Assembly: GCA_015228925.1 (NCBI GenBank)
Contig: JADGCQ010000001.1
Span: 114,669-148,025 of the forward strand
Reading direction: 5' to 3'
DNA: 33,357 bases
Source: Magnetococcales bacterium
GTDB taxonomy: Bacteria; Pseudomonadota; Magnetococcia; Magnetococcales; UBA8363
The notes beneath the pieces are model-generated. The model searched no databases, was not told where the DNA came from, and worked only from the letters and a program-made list of their open reading frames with translations. Positions 934 to 11,671 of the stretch are shown piece after piece. Each line of letters begins with the position of its first letter. The first letter of the stretch is position 1. The translations under genes were made by a program, and so were the position numbers.

Positions 934-975
934 GATTCCCGACACCTACCGGGACATTGGTGGGGGTCGGGAATC
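934..975. terminator. Long hairpin between converging genes, overlapping the integrase stop codon
   Basis: GATTCCCGACACCTACC (934-950) pairs with 959-975 across an eight-base loop. This gives a 17-bp stem with one mismatch and one G-U pair. The right arm shares position 975 with the integrase stop codon (TAG, complement of 975-977). Neither side has a long U tract, so it is at best an atypical bidirectional terminator. Its position between two converging genes supports that role. It could equally be a mobile palindromic repeat or a recombination site. Confidence 0.5.
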
Positions 976-2060
976 TACTTTGATCCAGTTCCATCCTTCA
1001 CCGACAAAACCACCCGCTTCTTAGATCGAAGAACCTCCCCCAAGTCTTCGCCACGTAGATGGGTGTAGCGTTTCAGCATTTGTAAAGTCTGATGGCCTGA
1101 GATCGCTGAAACTTGCTGATCTGACAGCCCCATTTCAACCATCCTTGAGACGGCTTCATGCCTTAGATCGTGGAAATGGAAATCTTTCAGTCCAGCTTTT
1201 TTAACTATTAAATTCCAGTTTTTATCCATCAAATAGGGACGAATCTGCCCATCCTTCCCCGGCGATCCAAAAAAAATATAATCGGTCTCAAGAAAATTTG
1301 CTGCAAAATTGACGGCCTCCAGGATAACCTCTTCTGCAACTTCGGTGAGTGGAACTTCCCTTGGTGATTTTGCATGTCCACGTTCTTCATGCTCCCGGAC
1401 GATGATGATCTTTCTTGAAAGCTTCACGTCGGATTTTTTGAGTTTCAGGATCTCATTTTTCCGCATCCCGGTTTCCAGTGCCAACCGGACTATCTGGCTC
1501 ATCATTCTATTTGTGGCTTCATCAAGGGCTTTGAATAGCCGGATTTCTTCTGCCGGGAGTAACCGTCTGCTGCGGCCCCTTGGCAAACGTGGTTTTGCAA
1601 TTTGATCAACTGGATTGAATGTCAAACCGATTCGCCATTCTCGGATGGCTGTTTTGATCATGTGTCCAAGAAGCGCAAATTCAAGACGAATGGAATTTGC
1701 TGATACCGTTTTCAACCTCTTGTCCCGGTACTGAGCCAGCACGTCTACCGTCAAATTTGCGAGCGCATAATCCCCCAGATGGCTAATCAGGGTTCTTGCT
1801 CTGAGTTGTTCTCTGCTTTCCGTTGAGGCAGCCTTTTTTACAGAAACTTCTTCCAGATATTTTTTCATGGCTTCTTTTACCGACATTTGCTCGGCAACAG
1901 TCTTGGCGACATGCGAACCAGAAGACATGGACTCTTCGACTTGCGCAGCCCACCGGGACGCATCGCCTTTGCGCTCAAAGCTTTTTGATTGCGCCGGGAA
2001 GCCTCTTTTCCTGACTTCCGCTCGCCAACGGCCAGAAGATGTTTTTCGTATAGTCGCCAT
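975..2060 (-). CDS. Tyrosine recombinase / integrase of a tRNA-Arg-associated element
   Basis: The 361-residue product is a phage-type integrase that cuts and rejoins DNA through a tyrosine intermediate. The N-terminus (MATIRKTSSGRWRAEVRKRG) is the usual arm-binding start, followed by a SAM-like core-binding region (about 60-150) and the catalytic domain (about 165-345). Visible catalytic residues are Arg200 (ETGMRKNE), Lys232 (AKSPREVPL), His297 and Arg300 (FHDLRHE), His323 (SGHQT) and nucleophile Tyr332 (KRYTHL), so the enzyme looks intact. The frame continues upstream to a GTG at 2123, but the ATG at 2060 matches the family start. The gene begins about 420 bp from the 3' end of tRNA-Arg and is transcribed away from it. 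Direct repeats between gene and tRNA may be its binding sites. Confidence 0.93.
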   Translation of the reverse strand: MATIRKTSSGRWRAEVRKRGFPAQSKSFERKGDASRWAAQVEESMSSGSHVAKTVAEQMSVKEAMKKYLEEVSVKKAASTESREQLRARTLISHLGDYALANLTVDVLAQYRDKRLKTVSANSIRLEFALLGHMIKTAIREWRIGLTFNPVDQIAKPRLPRGRSRRLLPAEEIRLFKALDEATNRMMSQIVRLALETGMRKNEILKLKKSDVKLSRKIIIVREHEERGHAKSPREVPLTEVAEEVILEAVNFAANFLETDYIFFGSPGKDGQIRPYLMDKNWNLIVKKAGLKDFHFHDLRHEAVSRMVEMGLSDQQVSAISGHQTLQMLKRYTHLRGEDLGEVLRSKKRVVLSVKDGTGSK

Positions 2061-2185
2061 GCGGGAAATGGTACGTGATGATTGATCGTTATTCAACAGG
2101 TGCAAACATTTTTTATTCGGCACAGCAACAGAATACTTAAAAATAGTAAACTATATCAAAGATAAGCAGGAATTTTTCAAAATAG

Positions 2186-8385: not shown

Positions 8386-9342
8386 TCACACTTCGTCCGA
8401 AAAAATTTTATCCAGTGACTGGGCATCGAAGATGCGGAGGCTCCACGCCTCCAAAGAAGAAAGATCGGCTTTGGCGATCTTTTCGCTGGCCCAGTCGGGC
8501 ACAGCACCGAAACGGCGTTGCAACTGGCGAGTCAGGATTTTTGCCTCACCTCGCAGTTCGCCTCGCAGTTCGCCTCTCAGTTCGCCAATCTGCTCGCCTT
8601 CCCATTTACCAGCACCATAGGTGGAGAGTACAAAGCTTGCTTGGTCGTGCAGTTCTTCCTGATAACGTTCGTAGGCCCGACGCTCTGTCTCTGGCAATTG
8701 CAGGACATCAAGCCTCTCTTTGGCCTTTTTGAGGCCACGCGCTGTAAAATCATCCCGAATATCAGAATTTTTCAAGAAATAGACCCACTCGTCCAGGGTA
8801 TCGCGGGCAACATCATCAAAATTTTTCACCTTGATCAAGTAATGCTCTGGGAAAATGGCGGCTACCGAAGGGCGTTGGAATAGAGCCTTCTGCCCCTCGT
8901 CCAAGGCCAGTTCCTCCTGGGTATGCAATCCCCTGAAAGAAGTATTGCCCACATAGATATAATCGCTGCCGCGCCCCAGATCAAAATAAAGAATACTAAT
9001 GGTGATGACCTTGATGACACTGGCGTAAGGCTTGCCTTCCGTCATATGTTCAGTAATGGCCTTGGCCGTGCTGAAAAGTAACCTTTGTAGATAATCCCAC
9101 TCTCGTTCATATTGCAACTCAACGATAATTATTTCATCTCGGGCGTTTTTGATCTTGAGATCGACACGGTTGAATTTATCGTGACGGGCCTCCTGATTAC
9201 TTTCGCTCTCCAAAATTTCAACAATACGCACATCCTCGCGAAGAAGTTCGGTGAGGAACCCTTCAAGGATTTCAAAATTGGCCTTACTGCGCAACAGGCG
9301 TTTCAAGGCCCAGTCAAAGCTGATCAACTGTCGTTGTTTCAT
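8386..9342 (-). CDS. Rpn family recombination-promoting nuclease / putative transposase (PD-(D/E)XK)
   Basis: The 318-residue protein matches the Rpn family of PD-(D/E)XK DNA endonucleases, often labelled transposase_31. Members promote RecA-independent recombination, and some act in phage defence. The N-terminal signature SFDWALKRLL is followed by the likely active site: Asp61 in NRVDLKI and Glu75-x-Gln77 in IVELQYE, consistent with D-(x)n-ExQ. The C-terminal region has a GELR motif three times in a row (GELRGELRGELRGEAK), then a helical tail (ILTRQLQRRFG) like DUF4351. The repeat is written in near-identical 12-bp DNA units at about 8550-8590, so its number may vary by slippage. Related palindromic repeats flank the gene. 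It appears intact. Confidence 0.85.
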   Translation of the reverse strand: MKQRQLISFDWALKRLLRSKANFEILEGFLTELLREDVRIVEILESESNQEARHDKFNRVDLKIKNARDEIIIVELQYEREWDYLQRLLFSTAKAITEHMTEGKPYASVIKVITISILYFDLGRGSDYIYVGNTSFRGLHTQEELALDEGQKALFQRPSVAAIFPEHYLIKVKNFDDVARDTLDEWVYFLKNSDIRDDFTARGLKKAKERLDVLQLPETERRAYERYQEELHDQASFVLSTYGAGKWEGEQIGELRGELRGELRGEAKILTRQLQRRFGAVPDWASEKIAKADLSSLEAWSLRIFDAQSLDKIFSDEV

Positions 9343-9607: not shown

Positions 9608-11671
9608 TCAAAAACTTTCAAACTCATCATCCCCTGATTTCCCGTGACCAAGATCCAAATTGGCCCCTCCAGAGTGACGCGCAACCGAAGTCAATTTCCT
9701 GGACCCACCCCCTGAAAGATGCGCAACCTGCACCTTCCCCTTGGTCGCGGCACTCTGCGATTTTTTAACCGGATGCCGATCAACCGCTGAACGCTGCACA
9801 CCAATATTAAAGTAAGACATGGACTGATTCATCAACTCAGCCTGCGCACTCAATTCCTCCGCCGTTGCCGCCATCTCTTCAGAGGCCCCCGCATTTTGCT
9901 GAATCACCTGATCCAGTTGTTGAATCGCCGTGTTGATCTGGGATGCACCCTGATTTTGTTCCTTGCTGGAGATGGCTATCTCCTGAATCAATTCCGCCGT
10001 CCTCTCAATGTCAGGTACCAGCTTTCCGATGATGCTACCCGCCCTCTCGGCCACACCCACGCTCGTCGTGGAAAGTTGGCTGATTTCGCCTGCCGCCGTC
10101 TGGCTCCGCTCCGCCAGCTTGCGAACTTCGGCGGCAACCACCGCAAAACCCTTGCCATGCTCACCCGCACGCGCCGCCTCAATGGCCGCATTCAACGCCA
10201 ACAAATTGGTCTGACGGGCAATTTCTTCGATAATGCCAATCTTTGAGGCAATTTCCTTCATGGCGCGCACCGTCTCGCCAACCGCCGTCCCACCCGCTTG
10301 GGCATCCTTGGCGGCATTGCTGGCAATCGTCTGCGTCTCCGTCGCATTGTCGGTATTCTGTTGGACATTGGAAACCATCTGTTCCATAGCCGCAGAAGTC
10401 TCCTCGATCGATGCCGCCTGTTGCGTCGATCTTTGGGAAAGATCTTGCGCAGAGTCCGAAATCTGTTTGCTCCCCGTCGCCACCTGATCAGACGCATTAC
10501 TCAACTCGCCGATCACCTTTTTCAGGTGGTCCACCATCATGTTCATCGCATGAACCAACTGCCCCACTTCATCTTTCTGATTCAATTCCAACGTTTGCGT
10601 CAAATCACCCTGCGCAACCTTCTCCACAAATCCAAGACCCATCAGGATTGGCCGTACCACCGACCGTGGGATCACAATAGTCAGGAAAATTCCAATGAAC
10701 ACAGCCAACAAAGTCACGGTCATCACAATGGACTTGGTATGAACAGCCCCTTCCAACATACTCTTTTCAGATAAAATATTCTCGGATGTCTTGGTGATGA
10801 CTTCTTCAAAGATTCCTTTGACTTCCTTGAGAGCAACCTGGGTTTCGGCAGCAAAAATGTCTTCCGCTTTCTTTTTCCCCTCCAAGTTCTCACGCGCCCT
10901 GGTCTGCATCTTGTCCAAAACGCCCCGAACCTCAGCCAGGGCGGGTACAACCGAATCTTGATAAAGCTTAAGGGCCGTCTCACGGTCACCCGCCTTCAAC
11001 GCCGCATTGATCTTTTCCCCGGCCACATGAAGCTTGTTATGCGCCGGTTCGGCGGCATCCAATAAACGCCCCAGTTCCGCATCAGACTGGCGCATCTCTT
11101 TCCCAGGTGCCCCGTACATAAATTGACCTAACCCACACTTGGTTGGGTCGAATTGTACCTTGGCTTCATTTTGTCCCAACAAAAGTGCTTCCTGGACCTT
11201 GCCAACCCATACCAAATGATCCACAACTTTCTGGCTAAGAAATTCAGGCAATTTGGCATCGGCCCGTTTGAATACCTTGGAAATCTTATCCGCCGATTCA
11301 TGCAGCATCTGGTGCGGCTTCTCGACGGCTGCCAATAAAGGTGCCAGAATGGGTACCAGCTCCTCCGCTTTCTTCCGCCCCTCCCCGTAATACCACTTAC
11401 CAAAACCACACTGTTTAGGGTCCAGCTGTACATCCAAATCCTTAATGGTAGGATCATTGATAAAGGAACTGACCTTGTTGACCCAGTTCAGATGGTCCAC
11501 TTCACGTTGAAGAATTTCACCACGAAGCTTGTTACCCTCGGCAACCACCATGCCGTTATCGACGATCTCACCAATGCCACTGACGGACCATACCCCAGTC
11601 ATGATGACAAGCAGCAGAACAATGCCTATTCCGATGCCAACTTTCTTCCCAATCGAAAGATCTTTCCACAT
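9608..11671 (-). CDS. Methyl-accepting chemotaxis protein with two tandem CZB (zinc-binding) sensor domains
   Basis: The 687-residue chemoreceptor has TM1 (about 10-30), an external sensor (31-313), TM2 (about 314-335), HAMP (about 336-388) and a cytoplasmic signalling domain. The signalling hairpin carries the hallmark [20 protein letters not shown] (about 483-502). The external part holds two CZB units: H60, C88 (CGFGKW), H120/H124 (HxxxH), then H152, C179 (CGLGQF), H211/H215. The pattern H-x26/27-C-x-[FL]-G-x-[WF], then HxxxH, keeps all four metal ligands in both. CZB domains bind zinc and can sense zinc or hypochlorous acid; most described ones are cytoplasmic. No CheR-binding pentapeptide ends the protein. 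AGGGGA precedes the ATG. No other che genes are nearby. Confidence 0.93.

Follow-up and report, generated by a model that had tools for sequence, protein, structure and literature searches.

The locus discussed here raises the question of whether a chemoreceptor carries two CZB domains outside the cytoplasm and, if so, how the two are arranged and what they might sense. CZBs are nearly all cytosolic, with 384 (about 3.9%) regarded as putatively periplasmic (Perkins et al. 2021, PMC8262984), in agreement with an earlier note on this DNA, which had described most CZB domains as cytoplasmic. Periplasmic CZBs on membrane receptors are already a named subgroup (PMC8262984), so location alone is not new.

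The window, meaning the whole stretch of 33,357 nucleotides that was analysed, comes from a 4.25 Mb Magnetococcales assembly, in which the receptor gene lies on contig C111 and 22 matches to the MCP signalling domain are present. An ORF check of the window returned the gene with exact bounds (9608..11671; this and all other receptor features are on the minus strand), and its product is a methyl-accepting chemotaxis protein of 687 aa. Pfam matches in this protein are CZB twice, HAMP and MCPsignal, with a CZB E value of 1.9e-26 for the protein. When the whole genome was scanned with PF13682, CZB1 scored 60.5 bits and CZB2 41.2 bits, each alone above the curated cut-off of 29.4 bits, which was applied per copy. 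ORF, Pfam and hydropathy data together give the order TM1 - CZB1[CZB2] - TM2 - HAMP - MCP signalling domain, which fits a membrane-bound methyl-accepting chemotaxis protein.

Membrane topology and signalling domains

Hydropathy indicates two TM helices only, TM1 at about residues 12-30 (11582..11638) and TM2 at about residues 314-336 (10664..10732, also seen in the AlphaFold2 model), with both CZBs between them. From hydropathy, predicted structure and charge count, TM1 appears to be of the uncleaved-anchor type with a positive N side; its hydropathy peak is 2.3 and it is retained across the family. Among 90 relatives, the more positive flank of TM1 is the N-terminal one in 83, and that of TM2 the C-terminal one in 69, a bias that is expected if the 283-residue intervening region is periplasmic. 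In addition, the HAMP domain lies directly after TM2 and must be cytoplasmic, which fixes the topology of the receptor. The number of TM helices, the charge bias and the position of HAMP thus uphold the earlier placement of both CZBs on the external side. That TM1 is no genuine membrane helix and that the CZB region is cytoplasmic would accord with the cytosolic location of the majority of CZBs, but is extremely improbable given the hydropathy and family-wide retention of TM1, the charge bias at both helices and the HAMP domain after TM2; this reading was rejected on the charge distribution across TM1 and TM2.

The HAMP domain covers about residues 337-390 (10502..10663), with the Pfam stretch at 350-384, and is followed by the cytoplasmic MCP signalling helices at about residues 391-620 (9812..10501), recognised by Pfam and by a PDB sequence search. 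The C-terminal EFESF (9611..9625) resembles a CheR/CheB docking pentapeptide, and we take docking of CheR/CheB to be the function of pentapeptides of this type. The C-terminus of related receptors reads D-D-E-F-E-x-F, and a stricter docking pattern is present in 27 of 82 full-length relatives.

Arrangement of the two CZB units

Profile comparisons and structure prediction argue that CZB2 very probably sits nested within CZB1, between its alpha8 and alpha9 (helix names follow the TlpD structure, PMC12871147). The first part of CZB1, comprising alpha5-alpha8 (residues 45-135, 11267..11539; profiles, conservation and AlphaFold2), has no adjacent last bundle helix, alpha9. Between alpha8 and alpha9 of CZB1 lies an insert of ~125 residues, formed by the complete CZB2 and its own alpha9 (~residues 138-262, 10886..11260; profiles and conservation). 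Repeat and unit profiles assign the alpha9 of CZB2 to return-helix repeat R2 (residues 230-264, 10880..10984) and that of CZB1, parted from its domain by the insert, to return-helix repeat R1 (residues 265-300, 10772..10879).

A profile of single-CZB receptors (15 rows) aligned end to end with that of two-CZB receptors (65 rows), leaving a single insert of ~125 residues precisely at the junction of the return helix with the HxxxH helix of CZB1. Comparison of the double and triple profiles gave about 127 extra residues, distributed over the two sides of the tip as one CZB and 36 aa. When the 35 residues after it are included, CZB2 can be aligned to cytosolic CZBs up to and including the last helix (107 columns, E 2.6e-18), indicating that the return-helix segment is the alpha9 of the CZB fold; one-CZB receptors likewise align with cytosolic CZBs including the last helix.

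Counts of the return-helix repeat follow the same rule. With a profile built from one-CZB receptors only, alpha9 was found once in 16 of 16 singles (which are the training set of the profile), twice in 61 of 71 doubles and three times in 10 of 12 triples. The number of repeats therefore equals the number of CZBs in 87 of 99 proteins and is never above it, and a shuffled-tail control gave at most one weak match per protein (42 in 1980) and two matches in none of the 1980. Unit profiles of triple (T) and double (D) receptors pair outer with outer, C1 with R1 and C2 with R2: the best-scoring partners of T-C1 and T-R1 are D-C1 and D-R1, and those of T-C2 and T-R2 are D-C2 and D-R2. The loop between the TM helices measures about 159, 285 and 409 aa in receptors with one, two and three CZBs, respectively. 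The CZB period is 91-92 aa and the segment from the last CZB to TM2 grows from 55 to 88 to 125 aa, and an added CZB thus costs about 92 aa going up and about 36 aa coming back.

Structure prediction of the sensor region had been proposed beforehand as a check. AlphaFold2, supplied with the 65-row alignment, returned a model (mean pLDDT 92.8) whose helices follow the pattern that two CZBs should give (helices 7-72, 89-95, 97-105, 107-133, 141-164, 180-186, 188-196, 198-226, 230-298 and 302-344). The predicted order of helices, alpha5, alpha6-7, alpha8 and alpha9, agrees with the four-helix bundle of CZB, that of CZB1 being discontinuous at alpha9. Both alpha9 segments fall on one predicted helix of 69 residues (230-298), which returns into TM2; in a three-tier relative the return helix is 105 residues long (pLDDT 87.3). 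Foldseek searches of the two- and three-tier models against the PDB gave no significant match, long helical stacks being poor queries, and the fold claim therefore rests on sequence profiles and predicted secondary structure. In the PDB sequence search the whole protein matched only through its signalling part, and the single-CZB profile gave nothing useful.

The earlier note had spoken of a tandem pair. Two complete units are indeed present, but profile alignments, helix counts and predicted secondary structure place one within the other. Two consecutive Pfam CZB matches with a 92-residue period would suit a simple tandem, in which two self-folding CZBs stand in series before an unrelated coiled-coil stalk. 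Such an arrangement is nonetheless improbable, as only 8-9 residues separate the Pfam-like units, with no space for the alpha9 of CZB1, both alpha9-like repeats are located after CZB2, the return helix lengthens by about 36 aa per extra CZB, and the single and double receptors differ by one insert between alpha8 and alpha9. Loop lengths, alpha9 repeat counts and the single-insert alignment led to its rejection. The simplest reading of profiles and models is a stack of CZBs in which every further domain interrupts its lower neighbour at the alpha8-alpha9 junction, and members with one or three CZBs are as expected if a single CZB, made up of C part and alpha9, is added or lost at the tip.

Predicted metal sites and mode of sensing

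The ligand residues of CZB1 (H60/C88/H120/H124) and CZB2 (H152/C179/H211/H215) show no substitution in the first 13 homologues, whose identity reaches down to 35%. In 65 homologues, each of the eight ligand columns is 97-100% conserved, a site being incomplete in 3 sequences only. This conservation, with both scores above the cut-off, confirms that two complete CZB units retain the His, Cys and HxxxH ligands originally reported. Only 15 of the 283 sensor-region columns reach ligand-level conservation, a set that includes all eight ligand columns (hypergeometric P about 7e-12, a figure that serves as a guide only, since columns are non-independent). The pattern suggests that each tier binds one Zn2+ through three His and one Cys. 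Some relatives have lost ligands and kept the scaffold (L172, L221, L223, L175 and L179), and metal is thus not needed everywhere. L175 and L179 are three-tier receptors in which the scaffold is intact and most metal ligands are gone.

The only cysteines of the whole protein are C88 (11408..11410) and C179 (11135..11137), both predicted from conservation to be zinc ligands. One sensor-region Cys is found in 15 of 15 one-CZB receptors, two in 59 of 65 two-CZB receptors and three to five in three-CZB receptors. One Cys per CZB in most members argues for metal ligands and against disulfides, since the other ligand Cys is usually the only possible intramolecular partner. The concern that these cysteines would face an oxidising compartment is eased in this way, but not removed.

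The receptor shares with the periplasmic subgroup of PMC8262984 an N-terminal CZB region in a membrane-bound chemoreceptor, here between TM1 and TM2, and the replacement by Ala or Gly of the Arg that follows the ligand Cys; in the 65-homologue alignment, the Cys+1 position is Ala or Gly in most relatives. It differs in having two predicted metal sites, with the second domain within the first. Neither tandem nor nested CZBs are described in the text of PMC8262984, and a literature search found no receptor with either, which is weak evidence as its coverage lacks most subscription papers. The 'two CZB domains' of TlpD refer to its dimer (PMC12871147). Periplasmic CZBs were thus already known, and the nested two-tier arrangement, as read from sequence, appears to be new. 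Helicobacter pylori TlpD and Salmonella McpA share the CZB family, ligand set and MCP output, but are soluble and cytosolic with a single C-terminal CZB and typically Arg at Cys+1; the receptor falls outside this soluble class, having TM helices and CZBs that are not C-terminal. The CZB of E. coli DgcZ (3T9O) has the same three-His, one-Cys site and a similar whole-domain length (C part plus alpha9), but belongs to a cytosolic diguanylate cyclase with a single CZB. One three-tier relative has a third CZB with a match to the DgcZ family model. The HBM of McpS/McpK (PMC5126104), PilJ and TorS are likewise elongated two-module helical sensors between TM1 and TM2, but lack metal sites and are not built of CZBs. 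No HBM match was found in the receptor with Pfam at E <= 1, the resemblance being in topology only, and Foldseek similarity to the HBM, PilJ and TorS sensors was not significant.

Taken together, we consider it likely that the protein is a chemoreceptor whose periplasmic part forms a nested CZB sensor of two tiers, each with a metal site, and that these tiers act in series. In the predicted model, TM1 is continuous with alpha5 of the membrane-near CZB1. From alpha8 of CZB1 the chain would pass through the complete CZB2 and come back to TM2 as a single long helix, supplying alpha9 of CZB2 first and alpha9 of CZB1 second. The tiers would act on one signalling helix pair, because all share the path from TM1 to alpha5 and from alpha9 to TM2. 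In TlpD, loss of a ligand bond moves alpha5, alpha6, alpha8 and alpha9 and alters the signalling coiled coil (PMC12871147). By analogy, gain or loss of zinc, through a change in bioavailable Zn2+ or through Cys oxidation, could shift alpha5 and alpha8 against alpha9, and a change at either site could move TM2 against TM1. Coupling may differ from that of TlpD, as the Arg next to the ligand Cys, which there forms the salt bridge R341-D314, is replaced by Ala or Gly in most relatives of this receptor. Extra tiers might add range, gain or a second threshold. Zinc or oxidant sensing and cooperativity, as first suggested, are plausible.

External zinc/redox sensing by the two sites in series appears reasonably probable, and two other functions have to be weighed against it. 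A direct oxidant sensor, in which HOCl or a comparable oxidant attacks the Cys-Zn centre at one site or at both and the ensuing release of zinc leads to signalling, would have precedents in TlpD and DgcZ (PMC6715182, PMC8262984); earlier work on CZB reported oxidation of the Cys by HOCl (PMC8262984), and oxidants from outside would meet a periplasmic Cys first. This possibility is doubtful, since the receptors belong to sediment and sulfate-reducer-type lineages with no HOCl source and, as in the periplasmic subgroup of PMC8262984, lack the Cys+1 Arg of cytosolic receptors. Moreover, a 2026 preprint makes the case that bioavailable Zn2+ is the means by which CZBs report redox, favouring a response to Zn2+ speciation over one to oxidants (PMC13370339). 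Zinc might instead be structural, stiffening a long stalk whose true ligand is something else, either a small molecule held within the helical bundle or a protein that docks at the tip. Organic molecules or a partner protein are recognised by nested two-module helical sensors, for example those of McpS (HBM), PilJ and TorS, and these came up in the Foldseek search, without significance; a few relatives keep the scaffold and lose the ligands, and ligand-free copies without a signalling domain exist. A purely structural role is still unlikely, as no positions in the sensor region are better conserved than the metal ligands and known CZBs use metal as the signal. For external zinc/redox sensing, the everyday signal would probably be Zn2+ speciation linked to the sulfide/oxygen redox state of the surroundings, and not bleach produced by a host. 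Magnetococcales swim along oxygen/sulfide gradients, and zinc speciation as a cue in these gradients is speculation.

Distribution, tier number and gene neighbourhood

A survey of related genomes, also proposed at the outset, located the full-length two-tier sensor in 37 of 48 Magnetococcales genomes, and the two-tier receptor is not unusual within this order. The same form occurs in Malonomonas rubra and further genomes of its phylum (Desulfobacterota), in a Desulfovibrio MAG, and in a gammaproteobacterial MAG and two more genomes of its class; genome sampling is uneven and tier counts depend on the CZB profile built in this analysis. One- and three-tier receptors are interspersed among two-tier ones on a 92-row tree, calculated with inserted parts left out, and branches with good support make 10 changes of the two-CZB label necessary. 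At least 17 changes of tier state imply that gain and loss recur, gains and losses not being separable on this quick, unrooted tree made without bootstrap.

We lean towards regarding these proteins as 'Russian doll' CZB towers, a widespread receptor class in which the external sensor would grow by repeated insertion into its own tip loop and provide tunable zinc/redox sensing through one shared return helix. Such towers would have one, two or three predicted zinc sites, and in some a Cache domain would separate two CZBs. Periplasmic CZBs, a small and nearly unstudied category, would become a defined family with a clear construction rule. Natural one-, two-, three- and Cache-tier receptors offer a ready set for studying the effects of multiple sites on sensitivity, range and cooperativity, and for asking how signals are transmitted through a common helix that becomes longer with each tier. 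Provided that the sites bind zinc, sediment bacteria on oxygen/sulfide gradients would gain a direct external metal/redox read-out.

Several variant forms were observed. Cache-tier receptors have a TM1-to-TM2 loop of 445-470 aa with an sCache_2 domain between two CZBs (L225 2954-5683, L233, L188 and, by loop length only, L224). The receptors of L150 (1381-3288) and L154, the latter from a Desulfopila aestuarii genome, combine one periplasmic with one C-terminal cytoplasmic CZB, giving predicted metal sites on both sides of the membrane within one protein. In Magnetococcales, L230 (3015-4082), L231 and L232 encode proteins of ~357 aa in which a single hydrophobic helix at the N-terminus precedes a two-CZB-like region whose metal ligands have been lost, and which lack a signalling domain; in L232 the gene lies close to that of the two-CZB receptor and on the other strand. 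L012 (3001-3879) and L057 (3001-3882) have, directly upstream of the two-CZB receptor, another MCP-like coding stretch with about 40% identity over 293 aa.

Within the window, the receptor gene is preceded on the same strand by rnhB, rplS, trmD, rimM and an ffh-type gene, identified by Pfam except for trmD and rimM, which are presumed from gene order. Downstream, Pfam identified a PDDEXK-family gene and then ccoNOP with ccoG/ccoH, the genes of a cbb3 oxidase. Of these neighbours, the closest relative, L007, keeps only rnhB-rplS-trmD-rimM beside the receptor, which makes the neighbourhood uninformative on function, and a functional link to the cbb3 oxidase genes was dismissed as unsupported because only this ribosomal side persists. 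At more distant loci no neighbour is kept, except for a 58-aa stretch of the PDDEXK gene in L238. The PD-(D/E)XK family gene carries DUF4351 and lies between the receptor and ccoGH (8386-9342), and a phage-integrase-family gene is present near the left end of the window (975-2123).
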